A DNA stretch of 64,000 bases from Sphaerolaimus hirsutus. Lineage: Eukaryota; Nematoda; Chromadorea; Monhysterida; Sphaerolaimidae. Below are positions 9,505 to 62,226 of this stretch, piece after piece. Below the pieces are notes generated by a model. That model was not told the origin of the DNA. It worked only from the letters and a program-made list of their open reading frames with translations, and made no database searches. Both the position numbers and the translations under genes were made by a program. Every line of letters starts with the position of its first letter. Position 1 is the first letter of the stretch. The stretch lies in contig OZ038457.1 in the NCBI GenBank assembly GCA_964036195.1, forward strand, positions 25,678,787-25,742,786, read 5' to 3'.

Positions 9505-10021
9505 CAGTCCCAAGCCCTGTAATGTGTAAAGTAAAGTGTCAAATGTAAAGTCAAATGCAAAGTACTTTACTGTCAATTGTAAACTCAAATAAAGTAAAGT
9601 GTCAAAGTAAAGTGTCAATCAAAACCAGGGTTGGCAAAATCTCAGAAAGAAGGAAATTAAATAAAAATGGAAAATTGAAGAATAAAATAAAATGAAACAT
9701 GGATAAAATAAAAGTAAAATACAATGTTTATACAATTTTACTACAATTTTAGTAAAAATAATTTCACAAAAACCAATCCTGGTCATGAACTAACATAAAA
9801 AAATAAAAATAAATAGAAAATTGAAGAACAAAATATGAATAAAATACAATTTTTATACAATTTTACTACACGTTTAGTAAAAAGAATTTTACTAAAACCA
9901 ACCCTGATCAAAACAAAAAAGAAAAGATTTTATTACTGAACTTAGCATGACAATTGCCAGTTGGATGTGCATTTGACTTACAATTGACTCTTTACTTTGC
10001 ACTTTGCAGGGCTCGGGACTG
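9505..10021. mobile_element. AGTCCCAAGCCCTG-type fold-back MITE, interrupted
   Basis: The left end CAGTCCCAAGCCCTGTAA and right end TTTGCAGGGCTCGGGACTGG are inverted. Between them are reiterated AAAGTGTCAAATGTAAAG words. A different element (9626-9906) is inserted inside. This is the family whose copy at 30382 forms an ELL intron. Confidence 0.75.
9626..9906. mobile_element. hAT-type MITE (CAGGGTTGG ends), 8-bp duplication
   Basis: Begins CAGGGTTGGCAAAATCTCAG and ends AAACCAACCCTG, with direct duplications ATCAAAAC at 9618-9625 and 9907-9914. The interior is AT-rich ATAAAAT/TATACAATTTT words. It is nested in the MITE at 9505-10021. Confidence 0.88.
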
Positions 10022-13794: not shown

Positions 13795-14125
13795 AGTGAT
13801 GGAAAAGGCGCCGGGACAAATGGCACCGCACCGGCACCTCTGCCAGTTCTCAGAAAGGGCACCTGGGGCAGTGCAAAGCCCTGTAAAGTGTAAAGTAAAG
13901 TGTCAAATGTAAAGTCAAATGCAAAGTAAAGTGTCAATCAAAACAAAAAAGAAAAGATTTTATTACTGAACTTTGCATGACAATTGACAGTTTACTTTGC
14001 ATTTGACTTTACATTTGACACTTAACTTTACACTTTACAGGGCTTGGGACTGCCACCTGGCACCATGGGCACTGGCAAAAAAGGTCACCGCACCGCACCG
14101 GCACCGGTGCCAACGATATTTCATG
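13795..14125. mobile_element. TAGTGATGGAA/GGCACC element carrying a nested fold-back MITE
   Basis: The start TAGTGATGGAAAAGGCGCC resembles the element at 15992, but the interior uses GCACCGGCACC words. A copy of the AGTCCCAAG/AAAGTGT MITE lies inside (about 13865-14053), flanked by CACCTGG on both sides. Confidence 0.65.
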
Positions 14126-21106: not shown

Positions 21107-21426
21107 ATATTCTGTTGCTAAAATAAGAAAATTTTGAAGAAATCATATCATTTTTCTAAAAAATACCAAATAAAAACATAAAAATCATAAGAAACATAAC
21201 ATGATCATTTTAAGAAAAGTTCAGTAATTCTAAACAACTCTGCTTTACCTTGCGGCTTGCACGCGGGTTTCTCTGAAAAAATTGGGAAAATTCAATGCTG
21301 TTAAAACATCAATGTAAAATTTTTTCACAGAAATGTATTTTTTTAGCTTTTAACAAAAATTGCGTTTTCAAACAATCATTGACACGTTTGCAACATGACG
21401 CATAAATAAGTGCGAGCTCAGGTGCA

Positions 21427-21648
21427 GTCCCAAGCCCTGTAAAGTGTAAAGTAAAGTGTCAAATGTAAAGTCAAATGCGAAGTCAAATGTCAAATGTAAA
21501 GTCAAATGCAAAGTAAACTGTCAATTGTCATGCAAAGTTCAGTAATAAAATAATATCTTTTTTGTGTTGATTGACACTTTACTTTGCATTCGACTTTACA
21601 TTTGACACTTTACTTTACACTTTACAGGGCTTGGGACTGCCCCCATGT
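21427..21648. mobile_element. AGTCCCAAGCCCTG-type fold-back MITE
   Basis: Full-length copy of the family seen at 9505, 13865 and 30382: inverted CAGTCCCAAGCCCTGTAAAG ends with AAAGTGTCAAATGTAAAG words. The flanks show CTCAGGTG before and CCCATG after, with no convincing duplication. Confidence 0.8.
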
Positions 21649-30272: not shown

Positions 30273-30377
30273 AAAAGAGAAAAAGTCAGCGCACCGTGCA
30301 CTTGCTCAAATTATCCGAAGTGGCCTTGGCGACTTTACGAAAAGTGATCAGAGGACAAAATGGGACGGACGGGGCAG
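30273..30377 (+). CDS. ELL: ELL exon 1 of those seen (start of ELL domain)
   Basis: The frame starts with two carried bases, then encodes KRKSQRTVHLLKLSEVALA and onward to GQNGTDGA. It aligns with the ELL N-terminal motif around VFHVKLTDSALRAF of vertebrate ELL. The acceptor (GTTGGCAG) has a weak pyrimidine tract, so the left edge is uncertain; an in-frame TGA lies about 30 bases upstream and there is no ATG, so an upstream exon is required. The donor is GGGGCAG|GTGGCA, inside a transposon target duplication. Confidence 0.8.
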
Positions 30378-33300
30378 GTGGCAGTCCCAACCCCTGTAAA
30401 GTGTAAAGTAAAGTGTCAAATGTAAAGTCAAATGCAAAGTAAAGTGTCAAATGTAAAGTCAAATGCAAAGTAAACTGTCAATTGTCATGCAGTGTTCAGT
30501 AATAAGATCTTTTCTTTTTTGTTTTGATTGACACTTTACTTTGCATTTGACTTTACATTTGACACTTTACTTTACATCTTACAGGGCTTGGGACTGCCCC
30601 AGGTGGCAAATTGAAAGTGGTCGTGGGCAAAGATGGCGCCGACTTGAAGATTCTACTTGCTGATCAGGTGTGTTTTCATTTGTTGGCGAGAGCGATGGAA
30701 TAACGGTTTTCAGCGCTTAAAAAACATTGTTTCAAAGACCTGCTCATTGAGAAAAAAAGATTTTCTATCTAGTATGATTACGCGGGATTTTTGAGCGGGG
30801 GGCGGATTGTATACGGAGCCCGGCGAACGGGGGGGGGGTGGCGCCCCCCCCCTAAATTTTGGTCCTATGGTAAAGGAATGGAGCCATGGCATAGGTGGGC
30901 ACGGACCATGTTGGGCACGTTTGTAATGCTGCTAAACTAATGAAACATACATATTAAATAGAGGTGTCAGGATGTGCGCCGAAAATTTTTTCAAGGTGCA
31001 CAGAAAATCGCTTTAGAAAAGTGCTATTTCTGACAAATTTTCATGTCCGGCCCGGGAATGGGGGGGCGCCCCCCCCTGCGTACGTCCCTGTATGCATGTA
31101 AACCCATCAGTAGGGTTGGGACGATATGACTTTTCAATATCGATATTCGATATTTTTTTCTGAAAGTCGATATTCGATATCGATACGATATGGAATTTCG
31201 ATATTTTCGATATTTTAGTACAGCGGGGCATATTGTATTTCCATTTGGACACAAACATGGTTGATAATCTTTTTAAATGAGGCTCACAACAGTTGAAATG
31301 AGGTAATGAAATAAAAAACAGGATGAATCGAATTATATAAGGTGAAAAATTATGAAGCAAACACTTCAGGTCATACTTGTGACTAGGGGTGGCTTTTTAC
31401 ATTTTTAAAAGGTTGGTATTTTAAAATAAACAGCCAAATTTTTGAGCCATGGTGCCATGCAAAGTTTTGGTGAAATGGTTTCCTTGTGATGCAGTTTGCT
31501 GTGTTAATATCATATATTTTGTAAGGATGTGTATACATTACCCTTGATATCCTACTTTTGATAGCTCAATGTGAAAATAACATGGCATTTATAAATGATT
31601 TATTACTTTGTGCATTCATAAGCATACGTGTTTGGCTGCAGCATCCACTTTTTGTTGGCTTCAGCCATTTTTTATCGGATCACAAATACCTCAAAAAGAA
31701 TACCAGAATATCGAAAATATCGAAAAAATGGTCGATATTCGATATTTTTTCAAAATTTTCGATATCGATATTCGATATTTGATATGAAAAAATGGCCGAT
31801 ATCCGATATTCGATATTCGATACGATATATCGTCCCAACCCTACCCATCAGGGGTCTCCTAGGGGTGGGGGCTGCCCCCCAAATCAGCCAGCTATCTCTC
31901 TATCTCGGAGGCTGCTCAACTATCTATCTATCCCGAGGCAAATTTTTTGGTTACTTTGGAATTTTTGTGTTCAATATTCTCAAGGTGTACAAGCCGGCAC
32001 TGTCCCGTTATGCATCACAAACCCATTATGCATCTAGAACCGGCATGCATTTATATAACTATACCTGGCATGCTGAAAATTTGTAATTAAACACATTATC
32101 TAGTGATTTTAAGCGTGAAAATCTATAAAAAGTCTGAAAATAAGCGACTTTGGGTAAAAATTAGGGTAAAATTGCTCCAAAGTGCTCCAGATAGCTAGAT
32201 AGTTAGACAATTTGTGGGGGCTGTTCAGGGGAAGGTAACCACAATAATTTGCCACAAAATGGTTTGGGGTGGGGTAGGGTTGGAAAAAAATCGATTTTAA
32301 TAATGACCCCGATTTAAAAAAAAATCGATTTTTTAATAAAAATCGCTGGAGTCAAAAAAGTCCTATTTTTCTTTAAAATCACTTAAGAGAGGGATAAAGA
32401 GTAAACAAACCCATTAAAAATGATAGCCAGTGTACTATAATGGCTTATGTGGTAAGGTAACTGCTGTAGAGCTTTGGAAAAGCTTGGGAAAAAAATTATT
32501 TCAATTTAAAAAGTTATTAGTTTGTTATATTTGCAGTATAAGTCGCATTTCATCGACCATTTGCAATTCTGTTGGTAGGAAATGCATGTTCTTGCTGAGA
32601 ACACAGCCTAAATCATCCTGGAAATGAACATGAATGCATTTGCATTGATTTTAAATATGAGACCACATAACATAAATGTGTATACTTCCCCTAATGATTC
32701 AGTTTACCTTACACGCGTAAAAACATGCAGAAAAAAATTCTACAGAACCAAATTACTCTGCATAAGCAGCGAGAAAAAGGAATGAAGTTATTGGATCGGA
32801 AACTGCGCGCTTGCGTGCAATTTTTTTGCATTTTACTTAGTGCTTAAGTACCAAAATTTTTGCCAGCGATTTAAAAAAAAATCGGTTTAGGGGTTGCGAT
32901 TCAAATCCAAGGACGTATCCAGGGGGGGGCGGGGGGGGGGGGGCTGCAGCCCCCCCCTCCCCGGGGTGAGACCCAAAAAGTCCCGGAAAATGCATATTTT
33001 CCTATATATTTTTCAATGTTTCTTAAAAATTTTGCGCGCAAGCGCGCAATTTCTTCCCCATGCATTGTATTTTCAACGGATCGGCCCCTGCGAACCAATA
33101 TCCTCGGAAATAAACACATTTTTGCTGGATATGTATGCATTTTTACATACATATAAAGCGGCTCCTGGCGCCAACGCCAATAGCGCCATGGCGTGGCACC
33201 TTTGTATGGCGCTAGTGCCAAAACGCCTTTCCGTCCCTATATAGGGAAAAAATTTAGGGGGGGGGCGTTCGCCGGCCCCCGTAAACAAGCAGCCCCCCCC

Positions 33301-48300: not shown

Positions 48301-51300
48301 GTGGCAAATACGACACATATGACATTTTTACGTTTACGCTTTTTTTTATGTATTCCTTGGTATTTTAAAAATACCTTACGCTTTAGTATTTATACTTTTG
48401 ATTTGGAAAAGGTATTTACGTTTACGTTTACGTTTTCTAAAAATACCAGTATTTGTACAACTCTGGTGCTCAGTACTAAAAATTTCGGCCGATGTTTAAA
48501 AAAAACACATTACGGACGTCATGTTTAACAAAAACGTTTAAAAAACGTTTAAAAAAACATCGGCCAACCCTAGTCATATCTCAATGGAAAAGTTCCGTAT
48601 TTTCGTGAAAAGGCAGTGAACTATAGATACTATAGGAATATAAATACACAGGGACGTATCCAGGATTTTTGAGCGGGGGGGCTGCTTGTTTACGGAGGCC
48701 GGCGAGGGGGAGGGCTGAGCACCCCCCCCTTAAATTTTAGCTACATAGTGGCGGAATGGCGCCATGGCGCTGGCGCCATTAGTAGGCGCCACGCCATGGC
48801 GCCATTGGCGTTGGCGCCAGCGCCATGGAATGCTGTATATGTATGTAAATATACATACAAAACAGCAAAAAGCACAAGATTGAGTGTATTTATGACAATT
48901 TGCGGCCACATGCATGTAGAAAATCTGATGATAATACCTTATCTCTGGTGAAGAATGCGCGCTTGCGCGCAAATTTTTTTACGCTGACGTTGAAAACTTC
49001 GCATTTTCCGGTCACTTTCTGGTCTCAACCTGGGAAGGGGGGGGGGCTGCAGCCCCCCGCCCCCCCCCCCTGGATACGGCCCTGTAAATACATGCGTGCA
49101 AAGTTTCAGGTGATTTATTCTAGTCGTTCGTAAGTTGCAGGACTTAAAAGCAAATTCATCGTGGCAAACCGTGACAAATTTGCCCGTGTTCACACGAAAA
49201 TTGGTGACGACCAAATCGATTTTTTTAAAGTTACTTATTTCAAGGAAAATGTTCGGTATTTGTGAGAACAGGCAGTGAAGTATGCGATATACATACCAGG
49301 GGTAGGAAAAGGGGGGGGTTACCCGCAAACTGCCCAGCTATCTATCTATGCCGGAGGCCGCTCAGCTATATATCTATCCCGGAGGCAAGATTTTGGGCTA
49401 TTATCCCCTAACCCCCCCCCCCCCCAATATGCCAGCTATCTATCTGGAGCAATTGTTCAGAAACTAGACACCAAATTTCACTCAAAATCGCATTTTTCAT
49501 ACGTTTATATAGATTTTCACCTCCAAAATCACTAGTTCATGCATCTAACTGCCTTTTTTCAGCTATTTTTAGTACTATATGTCCTTATATACCCATTTTT
49601 AGCCATTTTTTTCACCTACTTTTAGCGATTTTTCTTCTTTCCCCGCCCCCCTTCTATGCCTATATATTGAACCCCCGCGAACCCCCCCCCCCCACCAAAC
49701 CCACCCCCGCACACCCCCCCCCAGAAAATTTTTCAGCTATGTATCCATCCGGGGGAGCGATATACTATCTATCCAACCCCCCGGAGGGTCAAAATCTAGA
49801 ATACCCCTGATACTATTTGAGTTGTGTGTCGTCGCAGCCCAGTCGATTAATGAAATTAATTTTAAAATTTGTATTTCTGCATTTTAGACCACTTTTGAGC
49901 CAAAAATACTCATGATAATTTGATAATTTTAAGTGTTTTTGCAGGGGTGAAAGACAAACTCGAAAAGTTCAAGAAAATTGAAAAATTCAAAACGTTTATG
50001 AATTGTCTAATTTTTGTTTGCCGTTGTTAAGTGTGACACCGCTAATTCCCCGCCCATCACACATCTAAGCCCATCCCAAATCTAAGCCCATCACACATCA
50101 ATGGGGGTTTAGATGTCTGATGGGCTGAGACGTGTGGTGTGTATAATTAGATGTGTGCCGGGTCGGTGATGAGTTTTTGATGTGTGATGATGGGTTTAGA
50201 TGTTGATTGGCACAGTGTTCTTCTGACAAATACGGCACTTATTCCTTGAAATATGAAACTTTGAAGATATCAATTCGTCAATCATTTTTCCTGTAAACAC
50301 CGTAAATGTCCTTTTCAAAACGCAGACATCGAGACAGGTTTTTAACCGAGTTCATCGAAATATGTATTTTTTCCATCTCGAGTGTACTTCACTTTTTAAT
50401 TGACACAAGTCACTTTGAAATTGAAATTTCAGGTGCTTTTTGATGGATAAAGTAAATAAGTTTTTAAACAAATGGAATCCATCCAATTCGATTCAAAGTT
50501 TAGACATACTGGTACGAAATGGCGTAGCAAAAAGCCACCCAAGTATAAACACATTGGCGCACCGCACCTTTTCAAGAAGTGCTCTGCGAAAAGGGCGCAA
50601 CGTTTAGTGCGAGTGTTTTTGTGCTTGCGGTGGCACTTAACGTGCACTTGCTCTTTGCAGCGGGTCGCAGCTGCGGCCGCTGAGAGAGCGGCTGGTGCAC
50701 ATGCTGGTGCTGAAGCCGCTGAGCAGGGACGACCTGCTGAGCAGACTGGCCGCCGACGGGCTCAGCACCGACGACGCCGCCTGCCTGGACGCCCTGCTCG
50801 CTCAGGTTCACTACCTGTCTTTGACACTTTGCCATTGCAACAAGTCTCCACTGCGGGCTACATTTTTGCACTTTACCTAGTGCATGAGTACCAAAACATC
50901 TTCCCAGCGATTTAAAAAAAAAATCGGTATGGGTGCTGCGATTAAAAAAGAAATCGGATAAAAAAATCTTTTGCCAACCCTAGCATAATTACTTATTGTA
51001 AAGTTGTGCATAAAATGCCATTCGCTTGTGCACATGCAAAATCTTAATAAAACAAACAAAAAGCCGAATACCCGTAAGCGACGAATAGCGACGACGACAC
51101 ACTCGCACTCAAAGTTTCTACATTTACCTAACATTCCCTCCCCGCAGCTTGGAGACCCCCAATCGCCGGGCAGCTCAAAATACACCCTCAAAACGACATT
51201 ATACAGTCAAGTCGATCAAAATTGGTCATTTTACGGCGACCTAGATCGAAAAGTGGTGGTTGCTAAATTGAAAAATCAAGTTGGCAGAAAGCCAAAAGCG

Positions 51301-54300
51301 CCGGCGGTGCCGATCCCCGGCAGCGGGGCGGACGCGTTCGCGACGGCGCTGGGGGCGGGCGAGCCGGGCGACAAGCCCAGCGTGGACAGCAGGGCGGCCA
51401 GCGTCGGCGCCGCGCCCAAGGTGCGTGCCCACTGCCGCTACCACTAGCTTGTCAAATTTACATTTTCCGCTTTCCGCGGGCTAATTTTTTCCGTTTTCCG
51501 GCAAGTGCAAAATTCTTTCCATTTCCGTTTTCCGGCAAGTGTAAACAATTTTCCGTAAAAAATTTTTTTGTTGAAACCCTAGGTGCGACGCACGGCTGCG
51601 CGCACCTCTCGGAGGGGGCCTTGATATTCAGAGTTCAGTGGCCTTGATATTCAGAGTGGGCTTGTGTCGGAGGTTTTGCGATAGCCTCGGTGAACTACAC
51701 TTGACCGAGGTTTATGATAACATAACACCGGTAAACTCAGGGGGGTAGGCCTGATACGCACATCTGCCCGATACGCACATTTGCCCATTTTTTTCACTTG
51801 ACACTTTTTGAAGTGATTTTCAGATATGAGTAAAGTGAAAAAAAGTTGCGCAATGACATTAGTGAACTTTTTTCACTTCACTCATATCTGAAAATCACTT
51901 GAAAATGTGTCAAGTGAAAAAAAACAGATGTGCGTATCAGTGCACCCCCAACTCAGGTGCGCTCAGAAGCTAAAAAATGAGTTTACCGAATTCTTAGTTT
52001 ACCGTAAGTCTACGTCAGAAGCCCACTCTGAATGCCAAGGCTACTGAACATAAATCAGTGGAATCCTCTTCCAGCTAGGGTTCAAACGGGATTGACTTTT
52101 CGGGATCGGGATCGGGATCGGGATTCACTTTTTGAGATTTCGGGATCGGGATCGGGATCGGGATTGGGGTTTCGGGATCGGGATCGGGATCGGGATTGGT
52201 TTTTTGAGATTTCGGGATCGGGATCGGGATCGGGATTGGCCGGGATTGGGGTCACGGGATCGGGATTGGGATAGGCATTTTTCCGGGATCGGCATTGGGT
52301 TCTAGGGATAAAGATTTTGGCCATTTTTCTGGCATTCACAGTTGTTCATAAAGGTCTCAAAACACTGTTGGATGCCAGAAAAGTGGCATAAAATTGACGC
52401 TGGGGGTTTGCACCCACTTTTTTGCATGCAAAAACGTCATTATTTCACTTTTTATAATTTCCACTAATTTTTCCGGGATCGGGATCCCGGACTTGGGAGT
52501 TTCTCGGGATCGGGATCGGGATTTGAAAACTTTCGGGATCGGGATCGGGATCGGGATTGGTATTTTTGAGATTTCGGGATCGGGATCGGGATCGGGATTG
52601 GGGTTTCGGGATCGGGATCGGGATCGGGACTCGTAAATCCCGGAATTTCACGGGATCCGGGATCGGGATCGGGATCCCGTTTGAACCCTACTTCCAGCCC
52701 CACCCCCGCACGCCCATAGCTTAAATCGAGGGTAGTAATTTCAGGGGGGGGGGGGGGGGTCGGCCCCCCAGCGCGTGCTTATAACTTGGGAACCGCTTGG
52801 TGAAAATTGTTGATATTTGGGTATAGTATGGTTTCAGGTCGGGGCTAACATGAAAATCGACGGCATCCTTGAATAGTCCCCCCGTCTCGAGATAAGGGGG
52901 GTCTATAGAAAGGTGGTCATTTTACATGTCTGATCTGGCATATTGAATTGAAAGCTTAATAACTCAACCATTTCTGGGCCGATTTAAATCGTTTGACAAT
53001 TATAATGATAGGGAAAACCTGCAGATTCCATTTTTGTAGTCGTCTTAGTGATGTATAAATCCCGTATCCCGATTTGACCCGGTTTTTCAACACAAAAATA
53101 AAAATTTTTATGAACATGTTATCATATACTTCACGCAACGAGGATTCATATAAAACAAAAATGGGTTCAATATCTCTTTCCAATCAATAGTTATAGCGCT
53201 TCAAACTTTCGCCTCCCATCCACATAAATAACCGAATGAAGAATGATGCATGCAACTTCAAAACTCCATATCTCGACCATTTCTCAGCCGATTTTCACCG
53301 ACGAACACTTAAAATGATCAGAATAACACGTTTTTATTCTCATTTAAACTGTATGCATTTTCATTATGATAATTTAACTCACTAGAACGCATTATTTTTT
53401 TGTATCAGAAATCTAATTAAATATACAGATAGTCTGCGAATAAAAATAGAATCTTCAAGTAATTTGATCATTTGAAATGTTCGTTGGTGAAAATCGGTTG
53501 AGAAATGGTCAAGATATGGAGTTCTGAAGTTGCATGCATCATGCTTCATGTGGGTTTTTTATGTGGACGGGAGAGAAAGGTTTGAAGCGCTATAACTTTT
53601 TATTGGAAAGAGATATTGAACTCATTATTGTTTTATATGAATTCTCGATGTCTGAATTATATGATAACATGGTCAGAAAAATTTTATTTTTGTGTTGAAA
53701 AACCTGGTCAAATCGGAATACGAGATTTAGATATCACTAATACGACTACAAAAATGGGATCTGCAGGTTTTCCCGATCATTATAAGTTTTAAACGATCCA
53801 AATCGGCCCAGAAATAGCTGAGTTATTGAGCTTAAACTCAATATGCCAGATCGGACATGTAAAATAACCACCTTTTTATAGACCCCCCTTATCTCGAGAC
53901 TCGGGGACTATTCGAGGATGCCGTCGATTTTCAAGTTAGCCCCGACCTGAAACCATACTATACCTAAATATCAAAAAATTTCGCTGAACGGTTCCCAAGT
54001 TATAAGCACGCGCTCGGGGGCCGACCCCCCCCCCCCCCTAAATTTACTACCCCCGATTTAAGCTATGCGCACGCCTCTCCCGGGACAGTTTCAACAAAGC
54101 TACGTGCTAGAAAATGCGACATTTTGAGAGAAAAATATTTCATGAAAATTTTTCTAAACATTCACTAATTATCAGGCCCAGGGACGTATCCAGGATTTTT
54201 GAGCGGGGGGGCTGCTTGTTTACGGAGGCTGGCGACGGGGGGGGGGCTCAGCCCCCTCCCTAAAATTTGTGGTACATAGTGGCGGAATGACGCCATGGCG

Positions 54301-57017
54301 CTGGCGCCATTAGTAGGCGCCACGCCATGGCGCCATTGGCGTTGGCGTCAGCGCCATGGAACGCTGTATATGTATGTAAATATGCATACAAAACAGCAAA
54401 AAGCACAACATTCAGTGTACATATTTATAATGATTTGCGGTCACATGGAGCAAATCTGATGGTAATACCTTATGTCTGGTGAAGAATGCGCGCTTGCGCG
54501 CAAAATTTTTTACGCTGAAGTTGAAAAAGTCGCATTTTCCGGTCACTTTCTGCTCTCGCCCCGGGAGGGGGGGGGCTGCAGCCCCGCCCCCCCCCTGGAT
54601 ACGGCCCTGATCAGGCCAATCTAATGCGATGGGAGAGGAAAATTATTCTTAATTCAGATTAAATACGCTAGGTCCCATCGTAAACTGCGCAGTTATACTA
54701 TTTCCTCGCGAAAAAAAATTACCCGATTTTTAATCGCGAAAAAAACTTTGCAGATTGAGCCCGAGCCATCCCCACCGCCCTCGAACATCGAAAATGAAAA
54801 TAATCAAAATAAAAAGTCAACAAAATGCGAGCAATTACCGGATGAATCGAAATCGAAAGCGAAATCAGCGGGAAATCAGTTTGAAAGTAGCGAATTGAAT
54901 GGGAGGAAAAGGCGGGCCCACAATGGCACCGGCGTTCCTGAGAAAACCGAACCTGTGCCCAAAAGAACTAGTCAAGGTTAAGTTTTTCATTTTAGCTTGT
55001 TGTTTATGCCTGGATCGGAGCTCGTGGTGCAAAAAGAACCAGAACTTCCTTGACATGCCGTTTTCCAGACATCTAGCTTCTTTGAATGCTGCTATACCGT
55101 ATTACCTCGAATTATTCCCCCTTGAATTAACCCCCCTCGAATTAACCCCACCCCTCAAAATGGGCTGGGGAAATACTACCCCCTCCGGCATGATGTGCAT
55201 CATGTATGCAATGTACATGATGTATTTATTACTACTAATTTGCATTGCAGCTACAATTATGTATGTATATGCTCATTTGTGTAGGTACAGATGTACATCT
55301 ATAGCCCCGATATGACTTATTTTCGCTCGTTTAACCCCGTTTTTTTGTATGCAAAAGCGTATTCTTTACTATGAATTTCACGAAAATTTCTGTCGAAATA
55401 ATACCCCCCCTCGAATTACCCCCCCCCCCCTCAAATTTTGCTGGCGAAATAATAAACCCCCATGGCGGTATTTCGAGGTATGTAATACGGTAAGTACTTA
55501 GTGAATTTCGCAAGTGGAGAGAAGTGAAGAAAAACACATTTTTTAAGTGAGACGTAAAGTGAAATGGCAACTAAAAAGTTAAAACGACATAAATTTAGAG
55601 GTTTAAAAGTTACTGGAAAGTTTAAAAAGAACGAAAGGTTGAAAGTTTATGTAAAACAAAATTACTGGCTTAAAAAACTTTACCTTTTTGAACCAGCAGC
55701 AGGGAATACCTCTGGTATCCTAGATTTTGACCCCAGGGGGTTGGATAGATAGCTGTTTTTTGGGGGGTGGGGGGGGGGCGGGGCGCTGTTGTGTTTAAAT
55801 ATATAGGCTTTTTCAAGGTGTAGAAAGCAGAAATGTGTGAAAAATCGCTAATAGTATTTTTTCGGTATGTGAAAAGTAGGTATATGAGAAAATATAGTGC
55901 TTAAAATGGCTGAAAATAGGCATCTAGACTCATGAACTAGTGACTTTCTGGCGGTAATCAATAAAACGGTATGTTTCAGGGAAACTTTGTGTATAATATC
56001 TCAGAAATCACTCCAGATAGCCTGATAACTGGCCGATTTGGGGGGGGGGCGTCAGGGAAATGTCGCCAAACAATTTGCCTCTGGGATAGATAAATAGCTG
56101 GGCGATTTTGCGTGGGGGTTACCCCCCCCCCATTGGAGACCCCTACTTTACGTTTACCTTTTTTACTTTTCAACTCACTTCTAACTTCTCATTTTACTTC
56201 ACTTTTTACGTCTTACTTATAAAATGTTTTTTCTATATCTCATCTCCACTTGCAAAAATGAGAACCTGGCCCCAAATTTTATTAGGTAGGTATCATAACA
56301 AATACAGTTTGAAACGTTTTTAAGTTTCAAAAATTTTCAATTTGGTCTCATTTTTAATTTTTTCTGTGCATGATTTTAATTTTTTTCAGTTGAACCGCAG
56401 TTGAATAGCAGTCATAAAAAGGGGTCGAAATCGGTTAAAGCTGATAATTCAAAGAAAACTGATTCGACGAAACGTGAAGATTCTGGTGGGAAGAAATATT
56501 CGAAAATGGTTGAAAATAAAGTTGACCAAGAGAAATCTTCCAGAGATAAGGTTTGCAATTTTTTGTTTGGACATTTTCATCTTTATTTACTAACGTTTTA
56601 TCCAAAAGTGTCCCAAAAGTGTCAAAATGTAAAGTTTGGAACGGAGCACATAACGTTGGAAAAAATGCAAAATGGTGAAAAATGTGCGGGGCCAATACTA
56701 GATGCCAATGCTAAACTCAATTTTCGAAACGTTGGAGTTATCGGCTTTTAGAATTTTGTGCATCACAATTATAGGTATTTCCATCTAAAGAATTTCATTT
56801 TCCATTTTTCCAGCAACGATCACCATCCGTTCAAAAAAAGGAAACAAATGTGGCAAAACTTGACAAAAGCAAATCTATGCAAAATGCATTTGCAAATTCC
56901 GCCGATATCGATCCCATTACGGCCGCTTTAAAACCGATAGAAGTTCCTGATTATCAAATCGAATTTCCTCCATGCGCGAATAATGATGATTATGTTCGAT
57001 ACCGGAAAATGTTTGAG
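30273..57017 (+). CDS. ELL: ELL, RNA polymerase II elongation factor (10 exons seen, both ends missing)
   Basis: ELL proteins stimulate RNA polymerase II by suppressing pausing and act in the nucleus in super- and little-elongation complexes. The ten exons are 30273-30377, 30603-30667, 34522-34659, 45251-45364, 45951-46036, 50661-50805, 51148-51420, 54754-54976, 56390-56550 and 56814-57017. All have GT-AG borders and the phases agree at all nine junctions, giving 504 codons. The N-terminal ELL domain is recognisable from VHLLKLSEVALATL, ELVGPAGVKLTVQ and SQLRPLRERLVHML, then LYSQVDQNWSFY. A Lys/Ser-rich disordered linker follows. The last exon ends VPDYQIEFPP...YVRYRKMFE, the entry to the C-terminal occludin-homology domain, whose remaining exon(s) must lie beyond the window. 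The first exon with the initiator Met was not found. Introns range from 225 bp to over 10 kb and are filled with transposons. Family assignment is from remembered ELL motifs and is strong; exact exon edges are inferred. Confidence 0.9.
30378..30602 (+). mobile_element. MITE-derived ELL intron (introner-like)
   Basis: The whole 225-bp intron is one copy of the fold-back MITE family (CAGTCCCAACCCCTGTAAAG at 30382 to CAGGGCTTGGGACTGCCC at 30599) plus target-site copies CAGGTGG at 30375-30381 and 30600-30606. The left copy supplies the donor CAG|GTGG, the right copy the acceptor CCCCAG|GTGG. Removing it joins the ELL frame without loss or gain: phase 1 into GGT-GGC. Pyrimidine-rich CTTTACTTTACATCTTACAG lies before the acceptor; that CTTACAG could act as a competing acceptor but would shift the frame. 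Because the family is nearly palindromic, it could offer similar signals in either orientation. Confidence 0.85.
30603..30667 (+). CDS. ELL: ELL exon 2
   Basis: 65 nt: two bases completing a Gly codon, then 21 codons reading GKLKVVVGKDGADLKILLAD and Q. It corresponds to the strand region after the first helix of the ELL domain. Donor CAG|GTGTGT, phase 0. The upstream border is the MITE target duplication. Confidence 0.85.
30776..31090. mobile_element. Truncated CAGGGACG-family hAT MITE
   Basis: GGATTTTTGAGCGGGGGGCG and GTACGTCCCTG mark a degraded copy of the family seen intact at 13026. In ELL intron 2. Confidence 0.65.
31111..31843. mobile_element. hAT-type MITE of TCGATAT words
   Basis: TAGGGTTGGGACGATATGAC to TATCGTCCCAACCCTA, with perfect duplications CCCATCAG at 31103-31110 and 31844-31851. 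Both arms are reiterated GATATTCGATAT words; the core (about 31230-31690) is plain AT-rich sequence. The frames rich in Tyr-Arg-Ile-Ser are products of the repeat. Confidence 0.93.
31848..32270. mobile_element. CAGGGGT/CTATCTAT element fragment
   Basis: CAGGGGTCTCCTAGGGG, CAGCTATCTCTCTATC and GTGATTTTAAGCG are words of the 28316 family. Flanking GCATTATGCATC-like words recur near 33430. No clean right end. Confidence 0.55.
32275..33368. mobile_element. TAGGGTTGG-type MITE (AAATCGATTTT words) with nested hAT
   Basis: Starts TAGGGTTGGAAAAAAATCGA; AAAAAATCGATCACCAACGG near 33350 is the decayed right end. Interrupted by the intact element at 32908-33326. Confidence 0.6.
32908..33326 (-). mobile_element. 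hAT-type MITE, CAGGGACGTATCC family, copy 2
   Basis: Inverted relative to 13026: CAAGGACGTATCCAGG to CCTGGATACGTCCCTG, with perfect 8-bp duplications TTCAAATC at 32900-32907 and 33327-33334. Carries the GCGCGC dyad at 33032-33049. Confidence 0.92.
33560..34265 (-). mobile_element. CTATCTAT/GGAGG element(s), inverted
   Basis: Reiterated GATAGATAGCTG and long G/C runs, with CATGAACTAGTGATTTTGG in the middle, are the inverse of the words in the 25702 element. At least two copies seem to be joined here. The apparent 211-codon frame is Pro/Ser/Tyr repeat translation. Confidence 0.6.
34522..34659 (+). CDS. ELL: ELL exon 3
   Basis: 138 nt, 46 codons, phase 0 at both ends, acceptor CCCTCACAG and donor GTGCAG|GTGGGG. 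Encodes TFTTHIAAEHSITELVCERH and then LELVGPAGVKLTVQ. This parallels the vertebrate segment from TFSFYLSNIG to LGSIQDKITVCA. High G/C at third positions against AT-rich surroundings. Confidence 0.88.
34755..34910. repeat. Half of a GGGATC-word MITE
   Basis: TAGGGTTCAAACGGGATGCC followed by GATCCCGATTC words matches the left end of the element at 52076. The right end is missing. Confidence 0.55.
34969..35196. mobile_element. Inverted-repeat MITE with a nested TA-site element
   Basis: CTCCACACACAGCGATTTTT and its inverse at 35177-35196 are the outer ends, with GTTCGAACGTT inside. At 35027 a second hairpin begins with CCGTATTCCTTCTAATAGA after TA and ends near 35145. Confidence 0.7.
35210..35633 (+). 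mobile_element. 5'-truncated CAGGGACG-family hAT MITE
   Basis: GGCTGCTTGTTTATGGA to GGATACGTCCTTGG matches the family interior and right end (with GCGCGCTTGCGCGC near 35495) but lacks the left 30 bases. Confidence 0.7.
35634..36135. other. MITE fragments, no gene seen
   Basis: 35640-35845 is a core and right end of the ACCTAGTGC/AACCCTA family; 35965-36110 is a decayed CAGGGACG-family fragment. The 100 bases between them are unassigned. Confidence 0.4.
36136..36823. mobile_element. Fold-back element with reiterated GATCGGTACTTTTA
   Basis: ATATGAAGGGTGTGCTTCTA and its inverse at the right frame a 690-bp element. At least six diverged copies of GTAGATCGGTACTTTTAGAA lie inside. No gene. Confidence 0.7.
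37127..37542. mobile_element. TAA-site inverted-repeat element (PIF/Harbinger-like)
   Basis: GACCCCGTTTACACGGATTT with its inverse at the right; TAA at 37124-37126 and 37543-37545. The paralogous copy shows the empty site with a single TAA (42954-42956), which proves the boundaries. The 3-bp TAA target suggests PIF/Harbinger mobilisation. Confidence 0.85.
37559..37946. mobile_element. TA-site element, CCGTATTGGCTTG ends
   Basis: CCGTATTGGCTTGTTTTGA inverted at the right, flanked by TA. The paralogous copy near 42970 is empty. It contains two ACCATGCTTGAATTGAGT-type repeats. Confidence 0.85.
38471..39752 (+). mobile_element. hAT-type MITE (TAGRGATGGC) with a second TAGGGTTGG MITE inside
   Basis: Duplications CTCCAGAC at 38463-38470 and 39753-39760. 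The right end is short (GTGCCAT without the last CCCTA). A TAGGGTTGGAAAAAAACG element starts at 38594 inside it but has lost its right end. Confidence 0.75.
40049..40161 (+). pseudogene. ELL: ELL exon 4, duplicate copy with a 1-nt deletion
   Basis: Near-identical to 45251-45364 but 113 nt instead of 114: one A is missing (CTCAAATATG against CTCAAAATATG), which breaks the frame from the canonical acceptor CACCCAG. Skipping two bases to an alternative AG (CAGAG|CAA) would restore a phase-0 frame. It could therefore be a dead duplicate, an alternative exon, or an assembly duplicate. Confidence 0.7.
40250..41342. repeat. Giant inverted repeat (~1.1 kb) abutting the gap
   Basis: The left arm (GGCCGTAATGAAAGCCTGG arrays, then CGCAGGCAGCCAAATGTGCG) is mirrored by 41100-41340. 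The centre holds four or more CGACCCGGGTACC / CCCAACGCTAG palindromic units. The inner stem repeats ACAATGACAG and ACATTGTTCC words. No gene. Confidence 0.85.
41343..41542. other. Scaffold gap, 200 N
   Basis: Exactly 200 N, a conventional placeholder, so the true gap size is probably unknown. Frames translated as X across it are meaningless. Confidence 0.99.
41543..42806. mobile_element. Fold-back of GTGCCCAAGTA words holding a hAT MITE
   Basis: CGGTGCCCAAGTAAACATCC words on the left and TTACTTGGGCACCGG on the right flank the inserted element at 41798-42753. Confidence 0.6.
41798..42753. mobile_element. hAT-type MITE of TCGATAT words, with an internal hairpin
   Basis: TAGGGTTCAAACGATATGAC to ATCGTTTGAACCCTA, with perfect duplications GGCACCGG at 41790-41797 and 42754-42761. 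At 42308-42547 a perfect fold-back (AAACACCTTCCCAGTCACGT and its inverse) is inserted in the core. Confidence 0.92.
43493..44537 (+). mobile_element. hAT-type MITE, paralogue of 38471-39752
   Basis: TAGGGATGGCCAAAAATG start, CTCCAGAC duplications at 43485-43492 and 44538-44545. Shorter than its paralogue because part of the nested element is deleted. Confidence 0.75.
44618..45032. mobile_element. TA-site element, CCGTATTACCTCG ends
   Basis: CCGTATTACCTCGAAATACC is inverted at the right, with TA at 44616-44617 and 45033-45034. The paralogous copy reads AAAATAGTATAC with one TA, an exact empty site. The interior has GAGGGGGGTTTATT words and a near-palindrome around TACATGATGTA. Confidence 0.92.
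45251..45364 (+). CDS. ELL: ELL exon 4 (intact copy)
   Basis: 114 nt, phase 0 at both ends, acceptor CACCCAG and donor ATAATG|GTTAGT. Encodes SKECEAQNMMKQRAKDIISK and continues to PSKIM. It fills the ELL region between KITVCA and the KKVQFRKP stretch. Here the canonical acceptor keeps the frame open, unlike the copy at 40049, so I take this as the working exon. Confidence 0.75.
45450..45880 (-). mobile_element. CTATCTAT-family fragment, inverted
   Basis: GATAGATAGATAGCTGAGCG and TAGCTGAAAATCTG words, related to 28316, just upstream of ELL exon 5. Confidence 0.55.
45951..46036 (+). CDS. ELL: ELL exon 5
   Basis: 86 nt: PKFAASLSRPQSANSSRAA and onward to GLK plus two carried bases; donor AAGAC|GTACGT. 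The carried AC joins the first C of exon 6 as a Thr codon. The frame is also open upstream to at least 45929 (acceptor GGCTGCAG), but only the 45951 start matches the phase of exon 4. Very GC-rich. Confidence 0.75.
46363..47421. mobile_element. hAT-type element (CAGGGTTGG ends), nested
   Basis: CAGGGTTGGCAAAATCTCAG to AAACCAACCCTG, duplications TTCGTGAC at 46355-46362 and 47422-47429. Interior like 16907, with ATAAAAT, TGTCATGACAAATG and AAATCTTATG words. Confidence 0.93.
47712..48465. mobile_element. hAT-type MITE (CAGAGTTG ends), nested
   Basis: CAGAGTTGGAAAAACGTATT to TTGTACAACTCTG, duplications GTGCTCAG at 47704-47711 and 48466-48473. Subterminal TTTACGTTTACGTTT arrays. Confidence 0.93.
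48649..49084 (+). mobile_element. hAT-type MITE, CAGGGACGTATCC family, copy 3
   Basis: CAGGGACGTATCCAGGATTT to CTGGATACGGCCCTG, perfect duplications TAAATACA at 48641-48648 and 49085-49092. GCGCGCTTGCGCGC dyad near 48960. Confidence 0.93.
49297..49809 (+). mobile_element. CAGGGGTAGG/CTATCTAT element
   Basis: CAGGGGTAGGAAAAGGGGGG to CTAGAATACCCCTG, full-length with long C runs. The flanks ATACATAC and ATACTATT do not make a clean duplication. Confidence 0.8.
50045..50215. repeat. Fold-back of CACACATCTAAGCCCATC words
   Basis: CCCATCACACATCTAAGCCC words on the left and TGATGGGTTTAGATG on the right form a short fold-back. Confidence 0.6.
50661..50805 (+). CDS. ELL: ELL exon 6
   Basis: 145 nt, acceptor CTCTTTGCAG, donor GCTCAG|GTTCAC. 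After one carried base it encodes GSQLRPLRERLVHMLVLKPL, then LSRLAADGLSTDDAACLDAL. This matches the winged-helix-like segment of ELL (QRPFRDRVLHLLALRPY...LQKDGL in the human protein). This was the most diagnostic exon for naming the gene. Confidence 0.93.
50866..50990. repeat. TAGGGTTGG-family right-end fragment
   Basis: ACCTAGTGCATGAGTACC followed by AAAAATCGGT words and CCAACCCTAG. In ELL intron 6. Confidence 0.6.
51148..51420 (+). CDS. ELL: ELL exon 7
   Basis: 273 nt, 91 codons, phase 0 both ends; acceptor CCTCCCCGCAG, donor CCCAAG|GTGCGT. Starts LGDPQSPGSSKYTLKTTLYS, then QVDQNWSFYGDLDRKVVVAK. This parallels the ELL stretch TLQDCMYKDVQKDWPGY...LKRVLVRKL. The 3' half is GC-rich and encodes an Ala/Gly/Ser linker. 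Confidence 0.92.
51618..52045. repeat. Two-level fold-back
   Basis: The outer pair is GATATTCAGAGTGGGCTT / AGCCCACTCTGAATGCC. The inner pair (51751-51940) is CTGATACGCACATCTG / CAGATGTGCGTATCAG with a CACTTGACAC / GTGTCAAGTG stem. In ELL intron 7. Confidence 0.65.
52076..52690. mobile_element. hAT-type MITE of GGGATC words
   Basis: TAGGGTTCAAACGGGATTGA to GATCCCGTTTGAACCCTA, perfect duplications CTTCCAGC at 52068-52075 and 52691-52698. The arms are dozens of GGGATC hexamers; Asp/Pro/Arg-rich frames come from the repeat, not a gene. Confidence 0.93.
52706..54078. mobile_element. 1.37-kb fold-back element, copy 2
   Basis: Same architecture as 10080-11440: arms with CATAGCTTAAATC ends, TTGGGAACCGCTTGG, the GACCTGAAACCATACTAT block and CCATATCTCGACCATTTCTC near the centre. 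It has diverged substantially from copy 1. Confidence 0.85.
54179..54609 (+). mobile_element. hAT-type MITE, CAGGGACGTATCC family, copy 4
   Basis: CAGGGACGTATCCAGGATTT to CTGGATACGGCCCTG with perfect duplications ATCAGGCC at 54171-54178 and 54610-54617. Very close to copy 3. Confidence 0.93.
54754..54976 (+). CDS. ELL: ELL exon 8 (linker)
   Basis: 223 nt, acceptor CTTTGCAG, donor GTCAAG|GTTAAG, phase 0 in and 1 out. Starts IEPEPSPPPSNIENENNQNK and ends in a basic patch (NGRKRRAHN). Low-complexity and charged, as expected for the disordered middle of ELL. Assigned by phase and position rather than by conserved motif. Confidence 0.8.
55097..55490. mobile_element. TA-site element, CCGTATTACCTCG ends, copy 2
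   Basis: CCGTATTACCTCGAATTATT is inverted at the right and flanked by TA at 55095-55096 and 55491-55492. Relative of 44618 with a diverged interior. In ELL intron 8. Confidence 0.85.
55695..56150 (-). mobile_element. CTATCTAT-family element, inverted
   Basis: Starts near ATCCTAGATTTTGACCCC and ends GGAGACCCCTA, with CATGAACTAGTGAC in the middle; in ELL intron 8. Confidence 0.6.
56390..56550 (+). CDS. ELL: ELL exon 9 (Lys/Ser-rich linker)
   Basis: 161 nt, strong acceptor TTTTTTTCAG, donor GATAAG|GTTTGC. Two bases complete a Val codon, then EPQLNSSHKKGSKSVKADNS and a run of Lys/Asp/Ser. Similar in character to the basic KKKSKKHKDKER stretch of vertebrate ELL. Confidence 0.85.
56814..57017 (+). 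CDS. ELL: ELL exon 10 (entry to occludin-homology domain)
   Basis: 204 nt, 68 codons, phase 0, acceptor TTTTTCCAG, donor TTTGAG|GTTGGT. Ends with VPDYQIEFPPCANNDDYVRY and RKMFE. It aligns with the human ELL segment TPDYLLKYAAISSSEQRQSY just before EYSEYRDLH. The following domain exons are not in this window. Confidence 0.92.
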
Positions 57018-57127
57018 GTTGGTTTTTTACTTCTAAAAGGAAAATGTTGAATCAAACATATTTGGGAGCTATTTTTTATAAAACGCCTTTTCCACCCCTA
57101 ACCTAGTGAATAGATAAGTAGTAGGGA

Positions 57128-57866
57128 TAGGGTTGGCCGATGTTTTTTTTAAACGTTTTTTTTTTTTAAACGTTTTTTTTTATTAAAAAAACATGACGTC
57201 CGAAATGTTTTTTTTTAAAAAAAAACATCGGCCGAAATTTTTTTGTACTAAGCACTAGGTATTTTGCAAAATTTTTGCGCGCAAGCGCGCAATTTCACAC
57301 ACAAATTGACATTGGTGGTTGTTTTCATTGGTTTTGTTGCATTTTTAGTATCAAAACATCCATTTCTATGTGCTACCATGGGTGAATAAGCCGACATATG
57401 TTGCTGTAATATATAATATTGAGGTAATGTGCTTCCATGTACCTCCACAGTGTGTAACTTCACTCCCAAAGTAACAACCTCCTTTTATCACCTTGTTTGA
57501 TCACCATTCCGTGCCAAACTTTACCTGATGTCACGAACATTCGACTATAAGGCGATATACGAACGATATGTCGACGAAAAATGGATATTTTTGACACAAA
57601 TCACCACTTACAATGCTATCCCATGGCTCCACAGCCATTATATGGTCATATTTAACATCACAGAGTATTGCCAGTGTCTGATATACCTATATATGTTGAC
57701 ACTAGGTCATATCTGGGAGCTTTTAAAAAAAACGTGTTTTTTTAAAAAAAAAACGTTGTTTTTAAAAAAAAACGTTGTTGTTTTAAAAAACATGGAGTTA
57801 AAAAAAAACGTTTTTTTTAAAAAAAAAACATCGAGTTAAAAAAAAAACGTTTTTTTTCCAACCCTA
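57128..57866 (-). mobile_element. hAT-type MITE (TAGGGTTGG ends), 739 bp
   Basis: TAGGGTTGGCCGATG to TTTCCAACCCTA, perfect duplications AGTAGGGA at 57120-57127 and 57867-57874. It landed on the very end of the next element (57869). Contains the GCGCGC dyad near 57279 and AAACGTTTTTTT arrays. Confidence 0.92.
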
Positions 57867-57868
57867 AG

Positions 57869-59035
57869 TAGGGATGGCCTGGGTTTTTTCAAAGGTTTAA
57901 AAAAACCTGACCATAGAAACCATTTTTTTTAAAACTCAGCCAAAATTTTTAGTGCTAAGCACTAGGTCTTTTGCTGTTTTTGTGATGGTTTTTCGTGGTT
58001 CGGGTTTTTGTGATCACCATACCATTGGTGGTGGTTTTCATTGGTTTTTGAGGCATTTTTTAGTGTGAAAACTTACATTTGCTCATGCTATTGTGTCATA
58101 ATAAGCTGTGATATGATAGTGTGGCACATCCAATCAATGTACCTCCATTTACTTGTACAGTGTGAAACATAACTGCTTATAAATTGTCACCTAATTTAAA
58201 CACTATTCCATGGCCAACTTCACTTGAAGTCACAAATGTTTGACAAAAGCCAATATAGGTAATAAGTCAACATAAAACTAGGGTTGGCCGATGTTTTTTT
58301 AAACGTTTAAAAAAAAACGTTTTAAAAACAACATGACGTCCGAAATGTTTTTTTGTTTTTTTAAAAACATCGGCCGAAATTTTTAGTACTAAGCATTAGG
58401 TATTTTGCAAAAATTTTGCGCGCAAGCGCGCAATTTCACTCACAAATTGAAATTGGTGATTGTTTTCATTGGTTTTGTGGCATTTTTAGTATCAAAGCAT
58501 CCATTTCTATGTGCTACCATGGGTAAATAAGCCATCATATGTTGCTGTAGTATATAATATTGAGGTAATGTGCTTCCATGTACCTCCACAGTGTGTAACT
58601 TCGCTCCCAGAGTAACAACTTCCTTTTATAACCTTGTTTGATCACTATTCCGTGCCAAACTTCACCTGAAGTCACGAACATTCGACTATAAGGCGATGTA
58701 TGAACATGTCACAAAAAATATTTTTGACACAAATCACCATTTATAATGCTATCCCATGGCTCCACAGCCATTATATGGTCATATTTAACATCACAGAGTA
58801 TTGCCACTATCTGATATACCAATATATGTTGACACTTGGTCATATCTGGGAGCTTTTAAAAAAAACGTGGTTTTTTAAAAAAAAACGTTGTTTTTAAAAA
58901 AAAACGTTGTTGTTTTAAAAAACATGGAGTTAAAAAAAAACGTTTTTTTCCAACCCTACATAAAACGGAAATTTTTGACAGCAATCACCACTTATAATGC
59001 TATCCCATGGCTCCACAGCTATTATGTGGATTATT
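57869..59035 (-). mobile_element. TAGGGATGGCC MITE interrupted by a TAGGGTTGG MITE
   Basis: Begins TAGGGATGGCCTGGG; its body resumes at 58967 (GGAAATTTTTGACAGC) after the nested insertion and fades near 59035 without a right end. Confidence 0.75.
58279..58958 (-). mobile_element. hAT-type MITE (TAGGGTTGG ends), nested
   Basis: TAGGGTTGGCCGATGTTTT to TTTTCCAACCCTA, perfect duplications CATAAAAC at 58271-58278 and 58959-58966. GCGCGC dyad near 58418. Confidence 0.93.
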
Positions 59036-59106
59036 TTCGCCATTAAATTGAGCGTTGCTAAAAGTTGTAGAAAACAGTAAAAGTTAGCCCATGTTCACAG
59101 TGAAAA

Positions 59107-60138
59107 TTAGTGATGACAAGATTTTTTATTTTCATATTTCAAGGAAAACGTTCCGTATTTGTGAGAAAAGACAGTTAAGTATAAATATGTTGTCTGAATT
59201 ATCCACCAATTAAGTATATAATATGATAACCCCCCCGGTCTTGCAACCTTATCATTATGAGCCAAATAGCAACACCTTGGACAATGTCCATTTCCGTCAG
59301 AACCCTCAACGATGCGCTCATGCAACCCATCCTGCCTAATTACGCCAAATCTACAGCACCTAACAGGGGACTTGGTTACCTTCTGCACGTGTGGAACGAC
59401 AAACGATGGCAACACGCCAACCAAATAATCACACAATTCTGACAATTCAACGAGTGACATGATGTCCACTGGACGCTCAACAACTGCCCCACCAGCCCTA
59501 CGCTTGCCGCGTGCGCGGGGAACCTGTCTACCAAACTTCACCAGCTTGGTGCCTTTCGACCTAGCTATTCCGAAGGACGTAGGCTTCGGAACTTTTCGGT
59601 CTACTTGGTTGCCACAGCTAACAAAGTCCGGTCGCGCAAACTGCAAAAGCTTGCGGCGAATAACGTGCGGCTGTAATTTCCCTCTCTTACCCACCAAATA
59701 CCAAAGGTTTCTAGGCTGCACAACTTTCTTCAGCCTTTCAGCAGTCCTCTCAAAAACACCACAAATTCTGGGTTCAATAAAAGCTGGCTCCATGATCAAG
59801 TGATCAAGCAACCACTGCTGAGAAGCATCACAAATCACTTCGCCATTGGGCAGAACAGAATCAACCACAAAATCACCAGCGCCCTGAACCTTTTCCGCAT
59901 ACGTGGCCCGTCGCCGAATTTGAAACATTTCCGACACGGGTTCAAAACCATCAAAAACAGGGCCCGATTCCAAATCATCAACCTCCCAGAAACCTTCAGA
60001 ACTTGGCGCGCCTTCAGAAACAGAAACAAGATTTGCCCATGCTTCGAAAACCGACAACTGAACATCACTCGAATGCAAACAAATAAAAGCAACTTCCATC
60101 ATGATTTCATAAATTAGAATAGGAGTAATTAGATCCAC
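59107..60138 (-). CDS. Unidentified 343-codon protein frame
   Basis: The longest non-retroelement frame in the window. It opens at a GTG; the first ATG start gives about 330 aa (MMEVAFICLHSSD). The N-terminal third is acidic (EGFWEVDDLESGPVFDGFEP). A basic middle follows (RRKLLQFARPDF, then GRQVPRARGKRRAG). A Cys-rich motif C-P-R-C-C-Y-L lies near residue 290. The last 40 residues are hydrophobic and low-complexity and may really be intron after a donor such as GATAAG|GTTGCA. I do not recognise the family. It sits between repeats that face each other (59138-59185 and 62599-62650), so it may be a transposon-encoded protein rather than a host gene. Confidence 0.5.
   Translation of the reverse strand: MDLITPILIYEIMMEVAFICLHSSDVQLSVFEAWANLVSVSEGAPSSEGFWEVDDLESGPVFDGFEPVSEMFQIRRRATYAEKVQGAGDFVVDSVLPNGEVICDASQQWLLDHLIMEPAFIEPRICGVFERTAERLKKVVQPRNLWYLVGKRGKLQPHVIRRKLLQFARPDFVSCGNQVDRKVPKPTSFGIARSKGTKLVKFGRQVPRARGKRRAGGAVVERPVDIMSLVELSELCDYLVGVLPSFVVPHVQKVTKSPVRCCRFGVIRQDGLHERIVEGSDGNGHCPRCCYLAHNDKVARPGGLSYYILNWWIIQTTYLYLTVFSHKYGTFSLKYENKKSCHH
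59138..59185 (-). repeat. Inverted repeat with 62599-62650
   Basis: TTTCAAGGAAAACGTTCCGT and TTTGTGAGAAAAGACAGTTA are mirrored by CTTCACTGCCATTTCTCACA and GGAACGATTTCCTTGA at the other side. Related copies occur at about 48585, 49240 and 50225. Confidence 0.6.
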
Positions 60139-61600: not shown

Positions 61601-61611
61601 GATTGGCCCGT

Positions 61612-61752
61612 CTCTACTCCGAAGGACGTAGACTTCAGGAGCTATCAAGGCCGCTCCCTATTTTTACTATTCTTAGCCTAAGGCACATACCCCTCCAGAA
61701 GGGTTGACCCGTCTCTACTCCGAAGGACGTAGGCTTCTGGAGCTATCGGGGC
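61612..61752. repeat. Two ~50-bp direct repeats
   Basis: CCCGTCTCTACTCCGAAGGA begins copies near 61608 and 61709, each continuing through ACGTAG(A/G)CTTC and GGAGCTATC. The core CCGAAGGACGTAGGCTTC also occurs inside the frame at 59107-60138 (about 59573). Confidence 0.75.
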
Positions 61753-62218
61753 CCTCCCTTCCGGTGGCCACTCCCACCAAAACTCCCTGAGCGGCCGAAG
61801 CTCTATCGTTCCGCGGACGTTCCGGCGGCCAACGCTGTCGACGCTCGCGGGGACTGGGTAGGGGTAAATTTACGAGTTTTGAGCGATAAACTGTCGCAAA
61901 ACACGGCGACAGCACTTACCCCCCCTCAAAAACACGCTCGGTGCCATTTTTCAGAAGTTGGCACTCGGCCAAGAGTGGCCGATTTGACACTCTGCGACAA
62001 CTCCCCAAAACACCCAAAATCCCCCTCTCCCGGGTTCCGGCGGTCGGCGGGTGTCAAATGGCGGCGGCGCGGCGCTGTCGCGGCCGTCGAAGTCGTTCGC
62101 CGGTGCTTGTTTGACCGCCACACTCGGGAAACACAGTTTTTACTCGGCGCTGCTTTTCTTTTTAGTGAAAGCGCCGTAAGTTCCACAAAAGTTAGGTTCC
62201 ACTCCCAGTTGTGTCGAA

Positions 62219-62226
62219 TGACGTCA
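62219..62226. promoter_or_regulatory. CRE/ATF-like palindrome TGACGTCA (unit 1)
   Basis: Perfect TGACGTCA in the first tandem unit. It is repeated in the second unit at 62448-62455. Function unproven. Confidence 0.4.

Follow-up and report, generated by a model that had tools for sequence, protein, structure and literature searches.

Fold-back DNA transposons as a probable source of introns in the nematode Sphaerolaimus hirsutus, with likely repeated gain at one nucleotide in paralogous genes

Non-autonomous fold-back DNA transposons that insert at Y-C(A/T)G-R, carry a splice donor and draw their acceptor from a duplicated target very probably constitute an animal introner system in the genome of Sphaerolaimus hirsutus. 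In the mechanism that we propose, fold-back elements, presumably moved by a transposase acting in trans, would insert at a palindromic Y-C(A/T)G-R and duplicate three base pairs. Each element begins with GTGG or GTGCC and ends in a C-rich run. Its insertion in the sense orientation at a sense-strand CAG gives the order exon-CAG|GTG...CCCC-CAG|exon, so that the 5' splice site would come with the element and the 3' splice site would be completed by the duplicated CAG. Splicing would then remove the element together with exactly one CAG and return the original mRNA to the base. The long hairpin formed by the element may bring both splice sites to its base and bury the splice-like sites that lie further in.

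The window, that is, the whole stretch of DNA analysed, comprises 64,000 nt of the forward strand of contig OZ038457.1 (assembly GCA_964036195.1, positions 25,678,787-25,742,786) and lies on its chromosome, C13, within the 348 Mb of genome searched. Its features are collected in the table, together with five elements from a gene family considered below.

Features of the window, with five elements inserted at one site in the L060 gene family (positions are those of the window)
Feature	Position	Strand	Basis and remarks
Fold-back MITE copy	30378..30599	+	GTGGCAGTCCC...GGGACTGCCC; nearest copies elsewhere 96-97% identical among the matches listed
Left CAG of the 3-bp target duplication, directly 5' of the putative donor	30375..30377	+	sequence read
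Right CAG of the target duplication, source of the putative acceptor AG	30600..30602	+	sequence read
Left terminal inverted repeat arm	30380..30450	+	inverted-repeat comparison
Right terminal inverted repeat arm, with inner acceptor-like TTACAG|GG	30528..30598	-	inverted-repeat comparison
Second MITE copy, CAG at both edges	13869..14052	-	sequence search; related empty site found
Third MITE copy, lacking one base at the left end and with CAT at the right edge	21425..21639	+	sequence search
Longer relative, 517 bp core, other outer ends (CCGGGGC...)	9505..10021	.	sequence comparison
Putative upstream coding block, preceded by acceptor-like CAG	30273..30377	+	sequence read; ELL identity unconfirmed
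Putative downstream coding block, with donor-like CAG|GTGTGT after it	30603..30667	+	sequence read; ELL identity unconfirmed
ELL domain match over cut-off (PF10390, positions 184-242)	50641..50817	+	20 kb downstream of the element
Weak second ELL piece	51166..51267	+	E 0.11
L158 element, 270 bp			starts GTGCC, followed by CAG; excision would give RPGFW
L159 element, 157 bp			starts GTGCC, followed by CAG; excision would give KPAFW
L160 element, 190 bp			starts GTGCC, followed by CTG, without AG; excision would give KPGFW
L161 element, 330 bp			starts GTGCC, followed by CAG; excision would give RPGFW
L162 element, 220 bp			starts GTGCC, followed by CAG; excision would give KPGFW; frameshift just upstream

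Together with the CAG on its right, the window element forms a 225-nt interval with GT-AG ends (30378-30602). Its arms, 71 nt each, are 96% complementary, and the predicted RNA hairpin is very stable (z -13.8; none of 200 shuffles matched its stability). Removal of the 225 nt leaves an open frame across the join, as the initial annotation of this DNA had stated; if kept in, the element brings a stop within 15 codons in all three frames. The same annotation took the interval to be one copy of a family with further members near 9505, 13865 and 21427. The fold-back repeat and the three other copies were found, although the copy at 9505 proved to be a longer relative with different outer ends. A 7-bp target duplication, CAGGTGG, had also been proposed and is rejected: the left GTGG belongs to the element, the left-hand CAGGTGG with the 19 bases that follow it recurring 2,193 times in the genome, and the right-hand GTGG is flanking sequence outside the element that matches by chance. 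The duplication is of 3 bp, mostly CWG. The donor border CAG|GTGG is therefore carried by the element, which starts with GTGG, and the acceptor AG comes from the duplicated CAG; the idea that the duplication supplies both splice sites holds for the acceptor and fails for the donor, whose GT is formed by the element's own first bases.

The duplication was examined in a mixed set of 58 loci on chromosome 1, reduced to 53 by the removal of five that were unparsed or duplicates; 37 of these had the standard right end. Left and right triplets were identical in 21 of the 37, compared to 13.8 expected when triplets are shuffled (21 or more in 7 of 5,000 shuffles), and discordant in 16, some of which may reflect shifts in the C run. 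We conclude that the target duplication has a fixed length of 3 bp and is mostly CWG, the 16 discordant loci notwithstanding. Empty relatives of the insertion sites L002, L019, L025 and L036 carry a single CAG. The 16 mismatched triplets, and the empty relatives of L032 and L029, which do not match the left CAG, make any reading of the insertion chemistry provisional.

The near-constant CAG at the left edge of the copies found early arose because the query and the pattern themselves contained CAG. Copies retrieved by way of the inner sequence, and picked for the absence of a preceding CAG, showed CTG and ATG at the left edge, often repeated at the right. A reading that dispenses with the duplication and assigns the left CAG to the element was dropped, since in these copies the right edge tended to match. 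The bases that flank CAG are themselves biased: among 87 entries C or T precedes in 85% and G or A follows in 81%, compared to 50% and 44%, respectively, at 771 CAG sites in the window. With these flanks the target reads Y-CAG-R, a palindrome that resembles the proto-splice consensus.

The copies are short and have the terminal inverted repeats of MITEs, the class of non-autonomous TIR transposons. In the window, CAGTCCCAAGCCCTG occurs 12 times at up to three mismatches against an expectation of 0.82. Genome-wide, a search for the 26-nt left end with its CAGGTGG gives 2,193 matches (1,082 + 1,111) at up to one mismatch, compared to none for the control; without CAG, and at up to two mismatches, the left end gives 7,033 matches, among which there may be right ends. 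When the genome was searched with the window element, the best 40 of 1,034 candidates were scored, and were 94-100% identical over nearly the whole query, with CAGGTGG at the left edge of nearly all and mostly CCCCCAG or CCCCCTG at the right edge. The main sample, which is biased toward CAG at the left edge, consists of 105 loci with copies of the main family, giving 114 oriented entries (some copies with two GT ends count both ways). At four of the 105 loci the copy lies in an exon supported by homology or by paralogs; the majority of the sample lies outside recognised exons. Extrapolated from this CAG-biased sample to the 2,193 left ends, a proportion of 4 in 105 would mean that the main family alone had made some tens of introns.

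Several arrangements of repeats were seen in passing. L104, L105 and L106 (C2:24.43-24.45 Mb), spaced by ~8-9 kb, share one short MITE copy together with its flanks, and a small tandem array at C1:32627061-32627272 holds four MITE ends at an exact spacing of 62 bp. On the mitochondrial contig (C762, L076, 3600-4335) long tandem repeats come after an ATP6-like gene, recognised by eye, which directly follows COX1; COX1 reads with the invertebrate code 5.

Exonic copies with outside homology were sought among the open frames that flank elements. A Pfam scan of 137 such frames gave Ion_trans, TauD, ankyrin and tubulin-tyrosine ligase (TTL) at E < 1e-4, weaker matches being taken as chance, and a second scan, of 81 frames, gave Avl9 alone (E 0.01). 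At the Avl9 join (L119) the left exon scores 67.5 bits and the spliced sequence 84.1 bits: with the outer sites, residues 2-69 align to positions 83-150 of the profile, 68 residues on 68 positions, gapless. The two exon halves match the genome at their own locus and have no other good match. In the TTL-like gene (L084) the left frame scores 23.1 bits by itself and 30.9 bits once the downstream residues are added, the left part being the same (cut-off 20.1); a PDB search with this peptide returned no ligase, its sole match being a designed repeat protein. The joined peptide of L118 (...LRDRTPLP|DVQPGFMKDLV) gives gapless alignments with aromatic amino acid decarboxylases, the best at E 0.0076; it had no match in Pfam or NCBIfam, and NCBIfam had none for the two joined peptides searched. 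At L060 an open frame of 222 aa runs across the join. Left out of the counts were L038, with a weak match to TGF-beta propeptide (E 0.033), and the open joins at L024, L031, L043/L090/L091, L017/L093, L120 and L121, which are without outside support.

As with introners, similar sequences thus reach both putative splice borders at unrelated sites (Avl9, TTL, decarboxylase and L060). The suggestion in the initial annotation that the MITE family makes introns at AG/GT-like targets gains support from the predicted exact excision in Avl9, TTL and the decarboxylase, and from paralogs with and without the interruption.

The outer ends of most copies are polarised: one has GT and the other GG (GGGG), so that a GT stands at the border in one orientation only. 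GT is present at both ends in 11 of 114 entries, and also in L118. It had been thought that the near-palindromic form would allow splicing in either orientation. For most copies this is at odds with the single border GT, but the 11 two-GT-ended entries, and the inner sites CCT|GTAAAG and TTTACAG|GG, would leave room for it.

Orientation bears on the possibility that exonic copies are ordinary MITE insertions, in host genes that are pseudogenes or that retain the element. Of the nine supported exonic copies, the eight that are informative (Avl9, TTL, L060 and L158-L162) all have their GT end leading in the sense direction (0.008 in a two-sided sign test, by hand arithmetic), which argues against this possibility. 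The count leaves out L118 (GT at both ends) and L157, L166 and L167 (GG at both ends), and also two GT-first copies, L038 and that of the window, for which host support is weak or absent. No antisense exonic copy with support emerged from the two Pfam scans (137 + 81 frames); the antisense ankyrin frame seems to stop short of the element, and by eye that copy was read as intronic. The length of frames is uninformative on orientation: in a set of 81 copies, 50 sense and 48 antisense frames run open across the join for 60 aa or more, 31 and 26 for 80 aa or more, and 16 and 10 for 100 aa or more. Broken genes are suggested by the frameshift in the L162 gene and by the missing AG at L160, but for Avl9, TTL, decarboxylase, L060, L158, L159 and L161 the retrieved flanks show no other break in the frame across the join. 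We consider it distinctly unlikely that mere gene breakage explains the exonic copies; nevertheless, judging from L160 and L162, not every insertion need be spliced.

A second possibility is that splicing uses the inner sites of the hairpin, adding residues to the protein and permitting either orientation to be spliced. By eye the inner sites are nearer to consensus than the outer, and they can be placed in all ten copies listed. The window copy cannot discriminate between inner and outer acceptor, because it is one C shorter and its frame survives with either; indeed, it stays in frame with every combination of sites. Elsewhere the two can be told apart. The inner acceptor adds 19 nt in eight of the ten copies listed, and in Avl9 it leads to a stop within seven codons, whereas the outer sites give the gapless homology. 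The inner sites also lie within the predicted stem. On these grounds the use of inner sites appears unlikely, and excision at the outer borders remains our preferred reading, although an inner donor paired with the outer acceptor, which would add 18 nt and keep the frame, may still be in use.

The L060 family provides a comparison of sites with and without elements. The joined L060 protein has 38 matches in the genome, which group by place into ~28 loci. The family is large and uncharacterised and by eye resembles multi-pass membrane proteins, with several members on each of C1, C4 and C9; its 7TM-like appearance is also a judgement by eye, and Pfam gave no receptor match. Seventeen relatives were chosen because their match spanned the insertion site (L163, L170-L185). 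All 17 read straight through with K/R-P-G-F-W or a near variant (PGLW in L178 and L180; W changed in L182 and L185), and 13 have CCAGG. Three relatives with broken matches (C14:21655762, C6:19425508 and C4:11704845) are left out of the site counts. The uninterrupted coding sites include close counterparts of an interrupted one: L170 is identical to the flanks of the L162 insertion at 59 of 61 bases, and L172 matches the right side at 30 of 30 bases and fits the left with a one-base gap. Empty homologous coding sites of the kind that marks introners are thus present.

In five members (L158-L162) elements sit between the same two bases of this motif, four of the five with GT-AG ends. Each is nearer to copies elsewhere in the genome than to the other four, with which it shares 73-74% identity or short end pieces. 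The L162 element shows 95% identity with the copies at L030 and L075 and has only 36 bp in common with that of L158; the L160 element is 87% identical to the copy at L047, that of L159 reaches 89% identity with copies elsewhere in the genome compared to 74% with the L160 element, and relatives of the L158 and L161 elements reach 81% and 85%, respectively (the L160 and L162 elements were compared with retrieved DNA only). Hence the five do not represent a single old intron, and independent gain at one nucleotide in paralogs is likely on this evidence.

Insertions at neighbouring positions were also noted. In L060 itself the element lies about five codons upstream of the shared site. L157 (C1:14.106 Mb) and L166/L167 (C1:14.146-14.148 Mb) are paralogs with one common insertion about five codons downstream of it; this element is GG-ended and without an outer GT, an inner donor would be in frame by hand reading, and in one of the two paralogs the interval has grown to ~1.8 kb.

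The five insertions weigh against a third possibility, that elements inserted into, or took the place of, introns already present at these positions. For ELL, the gene to which the blocks flanking the window element had been assigned, an ancestral first intron would lie close by: human ELL has an intron after codon 45, within ~7 codons of the window junction if our hand alignment is right. Some copies do lie near, and apparently outside, exons, among them those at L022, L030 and L072 beside the Ion_trans, TauD and ankyrin frames; both their intronic position and which frame gave each match were judged by eye. However, in the exonic copies the GT-AG interval extends from the first to the last base of the element with no old intron sequence left; moreover, the 17 relatives checked in the multi-copy family are intronless at the site and the five interrupted ones hold different elements. 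Insertion into pre-existing introns is therefore, to our minds, very improbable as an account of these copies, and we retain the gain of new introns by insertion.

The assignment of the blocks flanking the window element to ELL was not confirmed. Pfam gave no ELL match over them, either with the 67-aa join or with longer joins; PDB gave no match for the window join, and BLASTP of the window joins against a stretch of human ELL gave no meaningful alignment. PF10390 is matched only by the two downstream segments in the table, although exons can be proposed between the element and the ELL domain. The ELL domain region is itself tandemly duplicated (49916-63966 of the window versus ~68196-77423, beyond the window, with more blocks to 79671), in six plus-strand blocks that are 94-98.5% identical, so that there are two copies of these ELL exons. 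The duplication starts near 49.9 kb and excludes the insertion site; no empty copy of that site was found in it.

Introners have been reported in only two animal groups, and are enriched in genes in 161 of 175 genomes, according to the survey by Gozashti et al. (2022, PMC9860276), which also describes introners of DNA-transposon type with splice sites partly carried and partly co-opted. The elements of S. hirsutus resemble those introners in that many similar putative introns derive from non-autonomous TIR elements and mRNA length would mostly be restored. They differ in their near-perfect hairpin, the 3-bp CWG duplication, a carried donor with a co-opted acceptor, the presence of several subfamilies that have ends of one type, repeated insertion at a single nucleotide in paralogs, and the location of most sampled copies outside recognised exons. 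Its Chrysochromulina-type introner (Fig. 2C) likewise carries the 5' splice site and co-opts the 3' splice site, but with a 4-bp duplication and without terminal inverted repeats, rather than with 3 bp and long inverted repeats.

Gains at recurrent positions have parallels. In work on fungal introner-like elements (PMC4457414), introns were gained at or near the positions of other introns, inside 15-bp windows where other species have regular introns; in S. hirsutus five elements lie between the same two bases. Daphnia shows frequent independent gains at nearly one place (PMC4202315); the term 'transposable element' is missing from the main text of that paper, whereas here each putative intron is a TIR element. 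A literature search, with subscription papers mostly outside its reach, yielded no report of different element subfamilies at one nucleotide in paralogs. We read the present system as a known kind, the introner, in what seems from the genome sequence to be a new variant with a same-site hotspot.

How introns arise has long been asked, and the genome of S. hirsutus brings to the question thousands of copies, paralogs without the interruption and a repeatedly targeted site. The target Y-CAG-R ties a transposon directly to the proto-splice consensus. A wider interpretation, to which we give even chances, is that a group of fold-back elements evolved polarised ends and proto-splice-site targeting, such that splicing became part of its way of life, and that intron positions shared among paralogs would owe their identity to repeated insertion at one nucleotide and not to inheritance. 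The genome offers a natural setting in which to ask whether introns at shared positions are proof of common ancestry.
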